A stretch of 55,580 bases of DNA from contig DXAL01000046.1 of the NCBI GenBank assembly GCA_019117125.1, forward strand, positions 1 to 55,580, written 5' to 3'. How positions within the stretch are numbered: position 1 is the first letter of the stretch; the number at the start of each line of letters is the position of its first letter. The DNA comes from Candidatus Mediterraneibacter merdipullorum. GTDB taxonomy: Bacteria > Bacillota > Clostridia > Lachnospirales > Lachnospiraceae. Below are positions 276-36,509 of the stretch, in pieces. Position numbers and translations under genes: made by a program. The notes beneath the pieces were generated by a model. That model saw only the letters and a program-made list of their open reading frames with translations, did no database searches and was not told the origin of the DNA.

Positions 276-874
276 TGGACCTGACAAAATTTAACTGGAC
301 AAGACAGCCGGAGCGTTTCCGAATCACAGACGGCACAGTGGAGATCGTCACAAAACCACACACGGACCTGTGGCAGCGCACGTATTATCATTTCCGCAAT
401 GACAACGCACCGGTCTTTCAGATGGAGACGGAGGAACAGTATTTCAGCTTTGTCGTGAAAACGGAGTTTGCAGACAGCCATCACCGTTTCGACCAGTGCG
501 GGATCGTGATGTATCTGGACAGCGAGAACTGGCTGAAAGGTTCCATCGAGTATGAGAATGACGAGTATCAGCATCTGGGCAGCGTGGTTACGAACGAGGG
601 CTGGTCGGACTGGGCGACAACGGTCATACCGGCGGACGTGAAGTCCATGTGGTACCGGTTCAGCCGGCGGGAGGACGATTATTGTATCGAGTGCTCTGAG
701 GATGGAGAGCATTTCCGGCAGATGCGTATCTGCCATATGCATAAAGGGAACGGAAAAATCCGGTTCGGCATCTATGCCTGTTCGCCGGAAGAATCGTCAT
801 TTAAAGCGGTATTCTCGCATATGGAACTGACGGAGTGCCGGTGGATGGCACACGACGGGCAGCAGCCGGACTGA
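275..874 (+). CDS. DUF1349 family protein (concanavalin-like fold)
   Basis: This soluble 199-residue protein has the layout of the DUF1349 family: an N-terminal FNWTRQPERF strand, a central WQRTYYHFRNDNAP segment, FDQCGIVMYLDSENWLKGSIEY, and a C-terminal IRFGIYACSPEESSFKAVF. Family members adopt a concanavalin A-like beta sandwich; the yeast relative REE1 affects enolase regulation, but no bacterial activity is established. There is no signal peptide. It starts directly at the stop of the preceding ORF, implying an operon. Length is normal for the family. Confidence 0.85.
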   Translation: MDLTKFNWTRQPERFRITDGTVEIVTKPHTDLWQRTYYHFRNDNAPVFQMETEEQYFSFVVKTEFADSHHRFDQCGIVMYLDSENWLKGSIEYENDEYQHLGSVVTNEGWSDWATTVIPADVKSMWYRFSRREDDYCIECSEDGEHFRQMRICHMHKGNGKIRFGIYACSPEESSFKAVFSHMELTECRWMAHDGQQPD

Positions 875-892
875 CGGATCGGAGAGCAAAAA

Positions 893-1507
893 GTGAAGAA
901 AAGTGATAAAAAGAGCAGACATATCATTTTGAAAATCCTGCTGGTCCTGGTAATCCTGGCAGCAGTTTACATCGGGAAGAATGTATATGACATCTGTGCG
1001 TTCAGTACGGTGGACGAAGCGCGCCGGGCGGACACCGCGATCATTCTCGGGGCTGCGGTGTACGGGGATGAGCCGTCGCCTGTTTACAGGGAGCGGATCA
1101 ATCACGGGATTACCCTGTATCAGGAGGGATATGTAGATTATCTTATTGTCACCGGCGGTTCGCCGGATGCGTCGGAGAAGACAGAGGCGGCAGTGGCAAA
1201 AGATTATCTGCTCTCACAGGGAATCCCGGATGAAGACATTCTGACGGAAGACCAGTCTTCGATTACGCAGGAAAATCTGGAAAACGCCAAGGTGATCATG
1301 GATGCATACCACTTGGAGACGGCAATCATCGTCAGCGACCCGCTGCATATGAAACGCGCGATGCTGCTGGCAGAGGATGCGGGGATTACGGCGTACAGTT
1401 CACCGACGCCCACCACGCGGTATATCAGTATGAGGACAAAGATTCCGTTTCTGGCAAGAGAGACATTTTATTATATCGGATATCAGTGGTACCGGCTGTT
1501 CGTTTAA
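893..1507 (+). CDS. YdcF/SanA-like DUF218 membrane-anchored protein
   Basis: This 204-residue protein has an N-terminal membrane anchor (about residues 10-28, LKILLVLVILAAVYIG) followed by a DUF218 domain. Family hallmarks are AIILGAAVYGDEPSPVYRERI, IVTGGSPDASEKTEA and the VSDPLHMKRAM segment. DUF218 proteins such as SanA and YdcF affect envelope barrier function, and some bind nucleotides, but the reaction is not settled. The anchor places the domain outside the membrane. It begins 18 bp after the DUF1349 gene and probably shares its transcript. Confidence 0.88.
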   Translation: MKKSDKKSRHIILKILLVLVILAAVYIGKNVYDICAFSTVDEARRADTAIILGAAVYGDEPSPVYRERINHGITLYQEGYVDYLIVTGGSPDASEKTEAAVAKDYLLSQGIPDEDILTEDQSSITQENLENAKVIMDAYHLETAIIVSDPLHMKRAMLLAEDAGITAYSSPTPTTRYISMRTKIPFLARETFYYIGYQWYRLFV

Positions 1508-1518
1508 AGGGGGCATTT

Positions 1519-2072
1519 ATGAAACTTCACTATATGGGGAAATACAACCTTGATCCGGATTCCCTGCCGCACGGGGAACATATGCCCGGAGCCGTACATT
1601 TATAGAAGCAGGGAGTTCAGGGGAACTCGGACTGATGGTCAATGTGCTGGGTATTGTGATTATGGTCATACTTGTGGCCCTTTCATTGATATGTGGGCGG
1701 TTTGATTTCAGCTTTCAGAGTGAGGGGTGGAAAATACCGGGGGCATGTCTGCTTGTCCTGCTCACACTTTTCCCGCACGAACTGCTCCATGCAGTCTGTT
1801 TCAGACGGGACGTCTATCTGTATACAAATCTGATGCAGGGGATGCTGTTTGTTGTCGGACCGGAGACGATGAGCAAAAGCAGATTTATCTTTATGTCTCT
1901 GCTTCCGAATCTAGTGTTTGGTCTGCTTCCATATCTGGCAGGAATGATTTTTCCGAATCGGATGATGCTTTTGATGGCTGGCATCCTCGGGCTCGGGTCA
2001 GGAGCCGGAGACTATTATAATGTTTTCAATGCAGTTACGCAGATGCCGCACGGTGCCAGGACATATCTGTAG
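1519..2072 (+). pseudogene. DUF3267-type membrane metalloprotease-like protein, frameshifted
   Basis: An ATG at 1519 behind AAAGGGGG opens a frame (MKLHYMGKYNLDPDSLPHGE) that stops at 1605. The matching continuation, FIEAGSSGELGLMVNVLG, lies in another frame from about 1599 to 2072. Restoring one base near 1597 joins the parts into about 185 residues. The downstream part has several hydrophobic helices and an HELLH motif (HExxH) in LFPHELLHAVCF, as in DUF3267 proteins, which are distantly related to membrane zinc peptidases. Either this is a genuine broken gene or a one-base sequencing error. An ATG at 1635 could reinitiate and keep HExxH, but would lose the N-terminus. Confidence 0.75.
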
Positions 2073-32685: not shown

Positions 32686-32695
32686 GATGAAGCAC

Positions 32696-32715
32696 TTCCG
32701 AAATAGTTCCGAAAT
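32696..32715 (+). promoter_or_regulatory. Tandem 9-bp direct repeat with 11-bp period (candidate OmpR-type operator)
   Basis: TTCCGAAAT occurs at 32696-32704 and again at 32707-32715, one helical turn apart. OmpR/PhoB winged helices bind such 11-bp direct repeats. The site lies 12 bp upstream of the -35 of the ribU-like promoter, a usual activator position. The gene two ORFs downstream encodes an OmpR-type DNA-binding domain. Confidence 0.6.
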
Positions 32716-32718
32716 CGC

Positions 32719-32732
32719 TGCAATAGATTGCA
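32719..32732. promoter_or_regulatory. Perfect palindrome overlapping the -35 (candidate operator)
   Basis: TGCAAT-AG-ATTGCA at 32719-32732 is a perfect inverted repeat that overlaps the -35 hexamer of the downstream promoter. It could bind a dimeric repressor. Confidence 0.45.
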
Positions 32733-32756
32733 TTCATTCTGTGCAGAGAGTATTCT
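32728..32756 (+). promoter_or_regulatory. Promoter of ribU-like/riboflavin kinase-regulator operon
   Basis: TTGCAT (32728-32733), 17 bp, TATTCT (32751-32756). The start would be near 32763, leaving about 28 nt before the proposed ATG at 32791. There is no room for an FMN riboswitch, whose aptamer needs over 100 nt. Confidence 0.65.
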
Positions 32757-32790
32757 TAAACTGCACATCAGGATGGAAGCGGGGATGGAT

Positions 32791-33435
32791 ATGAGCAGCA
32801 AAACAAAAAGAATCACAACGGTCTCTGTGCTTTGTGCCATTACTTATGTAGTGATGGCAGCGGGCAGGGTTCCCGTCGTCTTATTTTTGAAGTACGACCC
32901 GTCAGATGTTATCGTCACGTTAGGCGGTCTGATATGGGGACCAATGACTGCATGTGTCGTGTCTGTCACAGTTGCCGTTGTGGAAATGATGACCGTAAGC
33001 GACACCGGGTTTACAGGCTGCATCATGAATATCGTGCAGACCCTCTCCTTCGCGTGTACAGCAGCGCTCATCTACAGGAAGAAGCATACACTGTCCGGCG
33101 CGGTCGCCGGGCTTGCGGCAGGCTGTATGACAAGCGTTATCGTGATGACATTGTGGAATTATCTTGTGACTCCGATTTATATGGGGTATCCAAGAGAAGC
33201 GGTCGCCGAACTGCTGCTTCCCGTGTTCCTGCCCTTTAATCTGTTAAAAGGCGGGCTGAATGCTTCGCTTACCTTTCTGCTCTATAAGCCCGTGGTCAGG
33301 GCGCTGAGAAAGAGCGGACATGTCCCCGCACCGGAAAAAGAAACACAGCAAAGACATGCAGGATTACGCATCTTCGCAGCATTGCTCCTTGTCACCTGCA
33401 TCCTGCTCATTTTATCATTGAATGAAATCATATGA
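32791..33435 (+). CDS. ribU: ECF transporter S component, riboflavin (RibU)-like
   Basis: The 214-residue protein has about six membrane helices and the S-component layout: an N-terminal basic cap (SSKTKRITTVSVLCAITYV), VPVVLFLKYDPSDVIVTLGG and GPMTACVVSVTVAVVEMM. The LKYDPSD segment in loop 1 matches riboflavin-type S components of Clostridia. It would deliver riboflavin with a shared EcfAAT module encoded elsewhere. The next gene encodes a riboflavin kinase domain and overlaps by 4 bp, which supports the flavin assignment. Starts at 32773 and 32785 are possible; 32791 has GGGG 8 bp upstream. Confidence 0.8.
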   Translation: MSSKTKRITTVSVLCAITYVVMAAGRVPVVLFLKYDPSDVIVTLGGLIWGPMTACVVSVTVAVVEMMTVSDTGFTGCIMNIVQTLSFACTAALIYRKKHTLSGAVAGLAAGCMTSVIVMTLWNYLVTPIYMGYPREAVAELLLPVFLPFNLLKGGLNASLTFLLYKPVVRALRKSGHVPAPEKETQQRHAGLRIFAALLLVTCILLILSLNEII

Positions 33436-34139
33436 GAACAGAAATGAAAGAATCCTCACATTTACAGCCTCTCAGCACAGTGACCGGAATGGTAGTGCAC
33501 GGGCGCGGAATCGGGAAATGCGTTGGCACGCCTACGGCAAACCTGGAAACGGGCAGAAATACTGTTCTGCCGGAAACAGGAGTATATGTGGCGGAAATCC
33601 TGTTAAACAGCCGGATATATTACGGCGTGACCCACGTGGGGCTGCGACCCACGCTTGATGAGGAGTCTGCCGTATCCGTAGAAACTCATATTTTTAATTT
33701 TGACAGGGAAATATACGGACAGACCATGACAGTCAGGCTGTATAAGAAACTGAGGGAAGTGAAAAAATTTAATGAGTTATCTCTTCTGATAGAACAGGTG
33801 GAAGCGGACAGACTCCAGGCGCGGAAATTCTGGGGGATGGAGCAAGCAGAACATGCTTTCTCCATTGATGTCAAAAGACATTGTGTGATGATAGACGGTC
33901 GGGAAGTGTATCTGTCGGCAACCGAATTTAAACTGCTCCATCTGCTGTATCTTTCGCCGGATGTGACATTTACGAAGAAACAGATTTATGAAACGGTATG
34001 GAGGGAACCTGCAAACGACCATCTGCATGCTGTGGAAAACACAGTTTTTCAAATACGCAAACGATTAAGACCATATTGCAAAGAGCATGAATATATCAAA
34101 ACAGTGACCGGTTACGGCTACCGGTTCCAACCGGACTGA
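33432..34139 (+). CDS. Riboflavin kinase domain fused to OmpR/PhoB-type winged-helix DNA-binding domain
   Basis: The 235-residue protein has two parts. Residues about 15-137 form a bacterial-type riboflavin kinase domain: TVTGMVVHGRGIGKCVGTPTANLE with the TPTANL nucleotide/flavin motif, then ETGVYVAEI, YYGVTHVGLRPTLDEES with the GxRPT motif, ETHIFNFDREIYGQ and LREVKKFNEL. The FAD synthetase half of normal RibF is absent. Residues about 142-234 form a C-terminal OmpR/PhoB winged helix: YLSATEFKLLHLLYLSPD, FTKKQIYETVW, HAVENTVFQIRKRL, YIKTVTGYGYRF. There is no receiver domain. Its start overlaps the ribU-like stop (ATGA). I infer a flavin-responsive regulator that also makes FMN. Archaeal RbkR is an analogous fusion with an unrelated kinase fold. 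Confidence 0.88.
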   Translation: MRTEMKESSHLQPLSTVTGMVVHGRGIGKCVGTPTANLETGRNTVLPETGVYVAEILLNSRIYYGVTHVGLRPTLDEESAVSVETHIFNFDREIYGQTMTVRLYKKLREVKKFNELSLLIEQVEADRLQARKFWGMEQAEHAFSIDVKRHCVMIDGREVYLSATEFKLLHLLYLSPDVTFTKKQIYETVWREPANDHLHAVENTVFQIRKRLRPYCKEHEYIKTVTGYGYRFQPD

Positions 34140-34202: not shown

Positions 34203-34478
34203 ATGAAACAGTGTATGGATTCTGCGAATCTGCACCGCAGATTCGCAAAGATTATCGGACAGGTTCAGGCAATCGACCGGATGATTGACGAAGATATCCC
34301 CTGCGAGGATGTGCTTTCTCAGATAAATGCCGCCAAGTCAGCTCTGAACAAAGCGGGTCAGGTTGTTCTGGAAGGTCATATCAAGCATTGTGTCAAAGAT
34401 GCGATTGAACACGGCGATGCGGATGAGACCATTGAAAAATTCACAAAAGCGGTGGAGCGCTTTGCCAATATGCAGTAA
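34203..34478 (+). CDS. csoR: Copper-sensing repressor of the CsoR/DUF156 family
   Basis: The 91-residue all-helical protein matches CsoR: LHRRFAKIIGQVQAIDRMID, PCEDVLSQINAAKSALNKAG, GHIKHCVKDA. The Cu(I) ligand set Cys34, His59 and Cys63 has exactly the spacing (25 and 4) of mycobacterial CsoR. Without copper it binds DNA; with Cu(I) it releases. The start at 34203 follows ATGGAGGACAG and its own promoter. Two 16-bp operators lie upstream of the next gene. Confidence 0.92.
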   Translation: MKQCMDSANLHRRFAKIIGQVQAIDRMIDEDIPCEDVLSQINAAKSALNKAGQVVLEGHIKHCVKDAIEHGDADETIEKFTKAVERFANMQ

Positions 34479-34493
34479 AGAGAAAGCCATGGA

Positions 34494-34522
34494 GGTGCCG
34501 GCAGATTGCGGCGCCTTTTTTT
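34494..34522 (+). terminator. Intrinsic terminator after csoR
   Basis: GGTGCCG (34494-34500) pairs with CGGCGCC (34509-34515) with one G-T wobble, followed by seven T. Confidence 0.88.
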
Positions 34523-34579
34523 ATTGATGGCGGCATAAGTACGGACTGCATAGCGGCGGCAGAAGTTCCATGGATTGTC

Positions 34580-34608
34580 TTGACTGCCGATACCCACAGG
34601 GGTATAAT
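34580..34608 (+). promoter_or_regulatory. Promoter of the metal ATPase gene
   Basis: TTGACT (34580-34585), 17 bp, TATAAT (34603-34608). The -10 overlaps the first CsoR-type operator, so bound repressor would block RNA polymerase. Confidence 0.85.
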
Positions 34609-34630
34609 ATGGGCATACCCCTATGGGTAT
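34590..34630. promoter_or_regulatory. Two tandem CsoR-type operators
   Basis: ATACCCACAGGGGTAT (34590-34605) and ATACCCCTATGGGTAT (34615-34630) are both perfect ATACCC-N4-GGGTAT palindromes with centres 25 bp apart. This is the GC-rich core shape recognised by CsoR proteins. One covers the spacer and -10, the other the start site region. Confidence 0.82.
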
Positions 34631-34646
34631 AGAAAAGAGGTCCGGA

Positions 34647-36509
34647 ATGAAAAAGGTAATTGAGAAAATGGAAGATTTTCTGGAAATCGGCGGCATCAAA
34701 AAAGATGTTGCATTTCTTGTGTTCGGCGGCTGCTCCCTTGCGGTCAGCATTTTTGACATCATCCCCCTGCCTTTTGACGCGGCGTGGATTGCCATCATCC
34801 TCTGCGGCGTGCCAATCCTCATGGAGGCATTCATCGGTCTTGTTACCGCGTTTGACATCAAAGCCGATGTGCTTGTATCTCTGGCGCTCATCGCCTCAGT
34901 CTGTATCGGAGAGTATTTTGCCGCAGGAGAGGTCGCGTTTATCATGCAGCTGGGTGCGCTGCTCGAAGACAGGACGGTTGCCAGAGCAAGAGCAGGCATC
35001 GAGAAGCTCGTACATCTGACGCCCCAGACTGCGAGAGTCATCACAGACGGTACAGAAAAAATCATTCCTGCGGCTCAGGTGAAAATCGGAGACATCATCC
35101 GCGTACTGCCCGGTGAGACGGTTGCCGTGGACGGCGTCATCCTTTCGGGACAGACTTCTGTCAATCAGGCGGTCATGACAGGGGAATCCCTGCCTGTCGA
35201 TAAAGCGGCGGGCGACGAAGTGTCTTCGGGAACCGTCAATCAGTTTGGAGCCTTTGAGATGAAGGCGGTCCGGGTTGGCGAGGACAGTTCGCTCCAGCGC
35301 ATGATACGGCTCGTTCAATCTGCCGACGCAGGCAAGGCAAAGATTGTAGGCATTGCAGACAGATGGGCAACCTGGATTGTCATAATCGCTCTTACTGCCG
35401 CCGGACTGACCTGGGCGTTTACAGGCGAGATTATCCGTGCGGTCACCATCCTGGTCGTATTCTGTCCCTGCGCGCTGGTGCTTGCAACACCGACCGCTAT
35501 CATGGCGGCAATCGGAAATGCGACAAAGCACGGGTTCCTCGTCCGCGAGGGCGACGCCCTGGAAAGGCTGGCAAAGGTATCAAAGATTATGTTTGATAAA
35601 ACGGGAACCCTTACTTACGGCACACCGGAAGTCACCGATGTCAGGTCTATTTCGGATTATACGAAAGAGGATATCTATGCTTTCGCCGCTGCGGCGGAGC
35701 AGATGAGCGAGCACCCGCTTGGGAAAGCCATTGTCCGGTGCTACGGGAAGAAGCCTGCCGGCTGTACGGATTTCAGGATGCGACCCGGCGAGGGAGTGAC
35801 GGCTGTTGTAAACGGGAAAAATATCAAAGCGGGCAGCCTGAAACTGCTGAAGGATATCCGCATATCCGCACAGCTGGCGCATGGCGCGGGGAAATATCTC
35901 AATGAAGGCAGTACGGTCATCTATGTCGCTGTGGATGACATTCTGGCGGGATATCTTGTCCTGTCCGACACGGTAAGGGAAGAGAGCAGGGATATGATTG
36001 CCGCACTGGGGCATATCGGCGTTCATCCCGTCCTGCTCACGGGAGATAATAAAAATGCCGCCGGCACGATTGCGGCTCAGGTTGGCATCAGCGAGCTGCA
36101 TGCCAACTGCCTGCCTGAAGATAAGCTGGATTATATAGGCGGATATCAGGAACGTGGAAATGCCGTCTGTATGATTGGGGACGGCATCAACGATGCACCT
36201 GCGCTCAGAAAAGCAGATGTGGGCATCGCGATGGGCGGCGTGGGAAGCGATATCGCGGTAGATGCGGCGGATATTGCCCTCGTTGATGACGAGATAAAGG
36301 AACTTCCCCATCTGCTCTCCCTTTCCAGAAGAATGATGGCTGTCATCAAGATAAATCTTACATTTTCCATGGGGCTGAATTTCCTGGCAATCGCACTTGC
36401 CATAACCGGGCTCCTCGGTCCTGTGATTGGAGCGCTTGTACATAATGCGGGTTCGGTCCTTGTCATTATCAATTCGGCATTGCTGCTGAACTGGAAAAGG
36501 GGGACCTGA
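34647..36509 (+). CDS. P1B-type heavy-metal ATPase, no N-terminal metal-binding domain
   Basis: The 620-residue pump has TGESLPVD in the actuator domain, CPCALVLATPTA in the metal-site helix, the phosphorylation motif DKTGTLT, SEHPLGKAI in the nucleotide domain and GDGINDAP. It starts nearly at the first membrane helix and lacks an HMA domain. CsoR control suggests Cu(I) export. However, the last helix reads HNAGSVLVIINSALLL, and I do not see the NxxYN and MxxSS residues typical of Cu(I) pumps, so another soft metal cannot be excluded. The ATG at 34647 follows AAAGAGG; an ATG at 34623 lies inside an operator. Confidence 0.9.
   Translation: MKKVIEKMEDFLEIGGIKKDVAFLVFGGCSLAVSIFDIIPLPFDAAWIAIILCGVPILMEAFIGLVTAFDIKADVLVSLALIASVCIGEYFAAGEVAFIMQLGALLEDRTVARARAGIEKLVHLTPQTARVITDGTEKIIPAAQVKIGDIIRVLPGETVAVDGVILSGQTSVNQAVMTGESLPVDKAAGDEVSSGTVNQFGAFEMKAVRVGEDSSLQRMIRLVQSADAGKAKIVGIADRWATWIVIIALTAAGLTWAFTGEIIRAVTILVVFCPCALVLATPTAIMAAIGNATKHGFLVREGDALERLAKVSKIMFDKTGTLTYGTPEVTDVRSISDYTKEDIYAFAAAAEQMSEHPLGKAIVRCYGKKPAGCTDFRMRPGEGVTAVVNGKNIKAGSLKLLKDIRISAQLAHGAGKYLNEGSTVIYVAVDDILAGYLVLSDTVREESRDMIAALGHIGVHPVLLTGDNKNAAGTIAAQVGISELHANCLPEDKLDYIGGYQERGNAVCMIGDGINDAPALRKADVGIAMGGVGSDIAVDAADIALVDDEIKELPHLLSLSRRMMAVIKINLTFSMGLNFLAIALAITGLLGPVIGALVHNAGSVLVIINSALLLNWKRGT

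Follow-up and report, generated by a model that had tools for sequence, protein, structure and literature searches.

Control of riboflavin uptake in bacteria has been described mostly through FMN riboswitches. The locus analysed here raises the question of whether such control may also lie with a protein, as its gene for a RibU-like ECF S component runs, through a shared ATGA, into a gene for a riboflavin kinase that carries an OmpR-type DNA-binding domain. The pair lies within positions 1-55,580 of contig DXAL01000046.1 (assembly GCA_019117125.1) of Candidatus Mediterraneibacter merdipullorum (Lachnospiraceae), and this whole stretch of DNA is referred to below as the window. A preliminary description made from the sequence had proposed that the fused protein sets transcription of the transporter gene, and had noted the 4-bp overlap of the two genes, which was confirmed at 33432-33435. 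The features of the module and its 5′ flank are collected in Table 1.

Table 1. Coordinates of the riboflavin module and its 5′ flank, counted from the first base of the window
Feature	Position	Strand	Basis
5′ fragment of an NSS (sodium:neurotransmitter symporter family) gene, 70 aa	32473-32685	+	PF00209, E 2.4e-19
Predicted operator, TTCCGAA-N4-TTCCGAA	32696-32713	+	Only exact match in the window and in its own genome
Predicted promoter, TTGCAT (32728-32733), 17 bp, TATTCT (32751-32756)	32728-32756	+	TTG spacing constant at 20 of 20 fused loci
RibU-like ECF S component	32785-33435	+	PF12822, E 4.2e-18; nearest solved sequences are RibU
Flavokinase-winged-helix fusion protein, 235 aa	33432-34139	+	PF01687 and PF00486 domain matches; fold matches of the predicted structure
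Riboflavin kinase domain (PTAN, GLRPT, SVETH)	33477-33830	+	PF01687, E 1.9e-35; alignments
OmpR/PhoB-type winged helix, recognition helix HAVENTVFQIRK	33897-34127	+	PF00486, E 4.5e-18; fold matches

The symporter fragment that precedes the module covers positions 1-63 of the 524 in the PF00209 profile, corresponding to the first 70 codons only, and ends 10 bp before the predicted operator. No remaining portion of this gene was found among the open reading frames typed between 32473 and 38213. The fragment perhaps remains from a gene that the module landed in, landed beside or replaced. Downstream of the module, genes for a CsoR-type metal repressor and then a P-type ATPase occupy window positions 34203-36509.

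Surveys with the S protein or the fusion protein yielded 20 distinct fused loci, each with an S gene and a fusion, and 60 unfused S loci. The unfused set comprises 44 loci from a first survey, with the cut locus L173 kept apart, and 16 added later; L181, with a kinase cut at the contig end, and L128, with a broken kinase, were scored as unfused. Duplicates were counted once (L124 is the window, L013 the contig of L006, and L090 the locus L130). Fusions without an S gene would have been visible only in the searches of the nearest sample, the order, the plasmid records and the contig listing.

The protein was first read as a flavokinase joined to an OmpR winged helix, with neither an FAD-synthetase half nor a receiver domain, and domain searches (PF01687 and PF00486) bear this reading out. 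The kinase domain spans residues 16-133 and scores 122.2 bits against a curated cut-off of 19.6, and the winged helix spans residues 156-232. With the FAD-synthetase domain absent, the kinase domain forms the start of the protein, and RibF models matched with their C-terminal part alone, far below their cut-offs. No Pfam match to a receiver domain was found at E≤1, its place being occupied by the kinase, and the C-terminal half belongs to Trans_reg_C by profile match as well as by fold. Structure prediction, proposed earlier as a check, matched both expected folds: in a model made with nine related sequences (mean pLDDT 74.4), residues 11-138 match riboflavin kinases and residues 141-234 match response-regulator DNA-binding domains.

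The fused relatives aligned over their full length are 45-67% identical to the window protein. The Glu of SVETH, which we take to be catalytic, is conserved at all 20 fused loci, and PTAN, taken here as the kinase motif, is kept at 19 of them (L006 has PTAD), as is RPT (L131 has QPT). The recognition helix, presumably placed correctly from what is known of the fold, reads HAVENT[VI][FY]Q[IV]RK at 20 of 20 loci; past it, the winged helix of L014 is divergent in a frameshift-like manner. Because the kinase residues and the recognition helix are conserved across the 20 loci, both halves look to be under selection. The kinase half is presumably catalytically active.

Winged helices of this type also occur without a kinase. 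Small orphan OmpR winged-helix proteins lie near the module at L007:3350-3862, L007:6867-7301 and L010:5431-5862, with Trans_reg_C as the sole domain of both L007 proteins, and these orphans are possible donors of the fused domain. In L091 (genome G404; 1495-1839, minus strand), a winged helix closely resembles that of the fusion and has an identical recognition helix; the 3.2 kb covered there contain neither a match to the kinase nor a TTCCGAA site (at one mismatch or fewer).

The S gene may start at 32785 or 32791, and its homologues align from the second ATG (32791). Its product has an ECF_trnsprt domain and RibU proteins as its nearest solved relatives, and its predicted structure is of low confidence (pLDDT 51). 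The relevance of this S component to riboflavin is supported by the similarity to RibU and by the FMN riboswitches that stand before the S genes of its relatives. The S proteins in the alignment have a common C-terminal extension with an extra hydrophobic stretch. L138 and L149, among others, lack it, their frames ending at 191-192 aa. At L123 (genome G670; 825-1511, minus strand), where the S gene is similar to that of the window and the operator is absent, a flavin-reductase-like protein (PF01613) sits at the usual position of the kinase-regulator.

The genome that holds the window is 94% complete and encodes a second flavokinase in a 319-aa open frame of RibF size, along with a second RibU-like S gene that is 31% identical to that of the window and preceded by an FMN riboswitch (99.8 bits). 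FMN supply therefore does not depend on the module alone. Lumazine synthase was not found in this 94% complete genome, and import of riboflavin is therefore probably needed; the enzyme is present in 2 of 12 fusion-bearing genomes. Riboflavin auxotrophy of the host is thus probable, and of its two RibU-type S components one is controlled by an RNA sensor while the other adjoins the fusion.

A candidate target of the winged helix lies just upstream of the S gene, where two half-sites (32696-32702 and 32707-32713) form a direct repeat with an 11-bp period. All 20 fused loci have the exact site upstream of the S gene, and none of the 59 related unfused S loci with upstream sequence has it, the latter count being one that leaves out L173 and L190, which are without such sequence, and keeps L145 (209 nt upstream) and L185 (~300 nt upstream). 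This tracking of the fusion by the site supports the earlier proposal that the fusion sets transcription of the transporter gene. The broken-kinase locus L128 has a decayed near-site with one mismatch, and G646 offers a contrast within one genome, with the site present at fused L127 and absent at L178, an S gene alone. Among 11 genomes or records searched, the nine with a fusion carry the exact site at the locus and the two without carry none; in the nine, no regulon past the own operon was found, and the one further exact match, in G417, lies elsewhere inside an open reading frame.

Across 397 family genomes, the exact pattern has 45 matches in 45 genomes. Twelve of these are fused loci, and all 12 family genomes in which a fusion was detected have the site there. 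The other 33 matches are near background, with ~25 in a backward control, and the one-mismatch pattern is likewise near background (30 matches vs 21 in the control). Of the 33, 21 were checked, and none had a kinase, winged helix or S gene of the module's family nearby or a TTG at the fixed spacing. Five of the 33 occur in unfused-S genomes (G443, G611, G654, G673 and G711), distant from the S gene, and three of these five lie among the 21 checked. The pattern alone is not diagnostic; the pattern together with its spacing to the predicted promoter is.

That spacing is fixed. At all 20 fused loci, the end of the second half-site is followed after 14 nt by TTG. Among 16 representatives, defined by pairwise identity below 75% over 130 nt, TTG is kept in 16 of 16, the gap length is constant and a TATAAT-like hexamer follows 16-18 bp past the -35 (poor in L134, TATCCC), whereas drift has changed the flanks and most positions within the gap; the invariance of the half-sites in this set follows from the selection of its rows. 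The three bases at the TTG position hold 6.0 bits of information; 2000 circular shifts gave no more than 2.2. With an assumed transcription start 7 bp past the -10, the centre of the site would lie at about -59. A site centred there and clear of the promoter fits an activator that touches RNA polymerase from upstream, and the fusion is probably an activator of its own operon. The broader reading, that the fusion is an autoregulator of its own operon acting at the tandem TTCCGAA site, is one we consider likely; two of the alternatives share its core, so that the odds of these readings overlap.

One of these two holds that the fusion represses the operon and is released under flavin scarcity. 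Vitamin uptake genes are often autorepressed, uptake would be expected to drop when flavin is plentiful, and the archaeal regulator RbkR is thought to be a repressor released at low flavin. Repression is nevertheless unlikely at a site that ends 14 bp before the -35 and overlaps the promoter at none of the 20 loci, which is the usual position of an activator.

The preliminary description had also noted that no FMN riboswitch fits upstream. This is true of the window, and the absence looks derived. An FMN riboswitch precedes the S gene at 13 of the 20 fused loci, at 39 of the 44 unfused loci of the first survey, with a further one cut by the contig end at L145, and at 13 of the remaining 16 unfused loci. 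Because most related S loci carry one, the riboswitch is probably the ancestral partner of the S gene. Of the two associations expected from a genome survey, the pairing of the fusion with a RibU-like gene was found at 20 loci, and the lack of a riboswitch at only 7 of these. Absence is commoner in fused (7/20) than in unfused loci (4/43, L145 left out), with a Fisher p of 0.03 that is unreliable because the loci share ancestry, which the test ignores; some S-only loci are also without a riboswitch. A yjdF (azaaromatic) riboswitch occurs near the module in L149 (589-709, minus strand).

The seven fused loci without a riboswitch at the gathering score are the window, L006, L089, L125, L129, L134 and L138, and several of them hold relics. 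L129 still has the aptamer's 5′ part along with a terminator-like hairpin, L006 the 5′ flank and such a hairpin, and L089 such a hairpin alone; the aptamer is gone from the latter two, and the end points differ among all three. L125 has a weak relic, a shared 11-nt piece (E 0.04). No relics were found at the window, L134 or L138, where the leaders on the assumed start are ~28 nt (from ~32763 to the codon at 32791), ~47 nt and ~28 nt, respectively. The hairpins retained without an aptamer in L006 and L089 are not explained by a simple activator model. The best reading of these loci is that the fusion may supplement, and sometimes replace, the riboswitch. A fuller history, in which a riboflavin kinase in Clostridia captured an OmpR domain to become a one-protein sensor, enzyme and regulator beside the riboswitch, and the riboswitch was then deleted several times independently with intermediates still visible, seems to us about evenly balanced between true and false.

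The other alternative that shares the core of the favoured reading is an autoactivator blind to flavin, in which the winged helix gives positive feedback, the kinase merely traps, and flavin control is left to the riboswitch where present. An FMN riboswitch does still stand at 13 of 20 fused loci, and the geometry of site and promoter requires no ligand. The account becomes improbable in view of the seven fused loci without a riboswitch, as the three relic-free ones, with the leaders given above, have no other visible flavin control, and it leaves the joining of a DNA-binding domain to a kinase unexplained.

Among known systems, the parallel drawn at the outset was with RbkR, whose kinase is CTP-dependent and of another family; in the fusion, Pfam gave no match to another kinase family at E≤1. 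Both proteins combine a riboflavin kinase with a transcription factor, predicted in the case of the fusion. RbkR is archaeal and has its HTH first, whereas the fusion is bacterial, adjoins an ECF S gene, and has the flavokinase (PF01687) first and the OmpR winged helix last. In a table of PMC8305020, RbkR is called 'bifunctional as gene regulator and enzyme', as a riboflavin kinase and transcription factor, and is given an N-terminal HTH by contrast with MJ0056.

No flavokinase-OmpR fusion was found described in the literature searched, most subscription papers being outside its reach. The earlier statement that no bacterial system of this design was known needs RibR of Bacillus subtilis beside it. 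According to PMC9863419, RibR has ~230 aa, with an N-terminal monofunctional flavokinase and a C-terminal regulatory half, and residues 121-230 are described as having no likeness to any protein of known function. RNA binding by RibR and interference with FMN riboswitches have been reported (PMC7693651), with its gene located in a sulfur operon. The two proteins are alike in length, in the N-terminal flavokinase and in having a C-terminal regulatory half, and differ, with RibR compared by description only, in that this half of the fusion is an OmpR domain with DNA as its predicted target. Binding and overriding of an FMN riboswitch leader by the fusion would suit this shared order, a flavokinase followed by a nucleic-acid-binding half, and the riboswitches at 13 fused loci. 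An RNA target of this kind was rejected on grounds of position, since the conserved site precedes the predicted promoter and should stay untranscribed; with an OmpR DNA-binding domain as the C-terminal half and seven fused loci without a riboswitch, RibR-like action is highly improbable.

The fusion has the winged-helix fold in common with OmpR/PhoB response regulators and carries a metabolic enzyme instead of their receiver. PhoB binds in tandem at 11-bp direct repeats. BirA and NadR are vitamin or cofactor enzymes that double as transcription factors, and differ from the fusion in vitamin, enzyme and DNA-binding domain. FMN riboswitch-ribU units, which prevail in this S subfamily, control the same kind of gene with RNA, not protein, as the sensor.

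The fusion is sparsely distributed. Two of 61 genomes in the nearest sample have it and, counting full-length matches, 2 of 392 genomes of the order, with the own genome included both times; the S gene led to it in 12 of 397 family genomes. The S subfamily itself occurs in 46 of 397 family and 27 of 391 class genomes. Among the 80 listed of 524 relatives in a contig scan, frame length indicated 6 fusions, 72 RibF-like proteins and 2 lone kinases. No relative was found in viral contigs. Plasmid records gave 165 matches, 20 of them listed, and one (OY725878) covers at least 80% of the query. Relatives among the matches listed belong to Lachnospiraceae, Parablautia and Pseudoflavonifractor (Oscillospiraceae).

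The module is taken to have moved horizontally. The S proteins of L009 and L010 are 97% identical across families, and some modules adjoin genes that, judged by eye, resemble those for relaxases, mobilisation proteins or recombinases. Just upstream of the module, L007:4004-5028 and L010:6004-7028 hold a nitroreductase-like gene and an HxlR-like regulator (names by eye). S genes with a stand-alone kinase occur at L016, L130 and L144, and these loci look like a stage preceding addition of the winged helix. Fused and unfused loci are interleaved in a quick tree of S proteins; two independent fused/unfused contrasts fall on well-supported branches, both in the expected direction and not significant, and the best S tree has eight contrasts when unsupported branches are counted. 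Near-identical cassettes in Lachnospiraceae and Pseudoflavonifractor, some beside the mobilisation- or recombinase-like genes judged by eye, could suggest a functionless repeat that co-occurs only by shared descent of a mobile cassette, which is scarcely credible when, in the 16 representatives, gap length and promoter stayed constant while flanks and gap bases drifted.

Under the favoured reading of the fusion as an autoregulator, the S component, presumably with the cell's shared ECF module, would import riboflavin, and the kinase half would turn it into FMN and so trap it. Two protomers would bind the tandem site head to tail via their C-terminal winged helices, and the bound fusion would activate the promoter from ~59 bp ahead of the start. 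Since the kinase occupies the receiver position, whether it is empty or bound to riboflavin/ATP or FMN/ADP would most likely decide dimer geometry and operator occupancy, and it is from this that we infer a flavin response of the fusion. Fused loci that bear a riboswitch would then have two layers of control, with the protein acting on initiation and FMN on the leader; the protein layer alone is visible in the window.

The operator, the promoter and the small protein make this proposal directly testable, and the fused loci offer natural intermediates for studying the replacement of a riboswitch by a protein. If the proposal is true, it would add to the riboswitches a regulator made of protein, with the enzyme that takes the first step in flavin use sensing its own substrate or product and adjusting import. 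One preprint (PMC12934955) gives 49% of the Lachnospiraceae sampled as predicted riboflavin auxotrophs, and reports that both ribU genes of C. scindens, each with a riboswitch, are higher at low riboflavin. Control of riboflavin import by such a protein would bear on vitamin competition in the gut.
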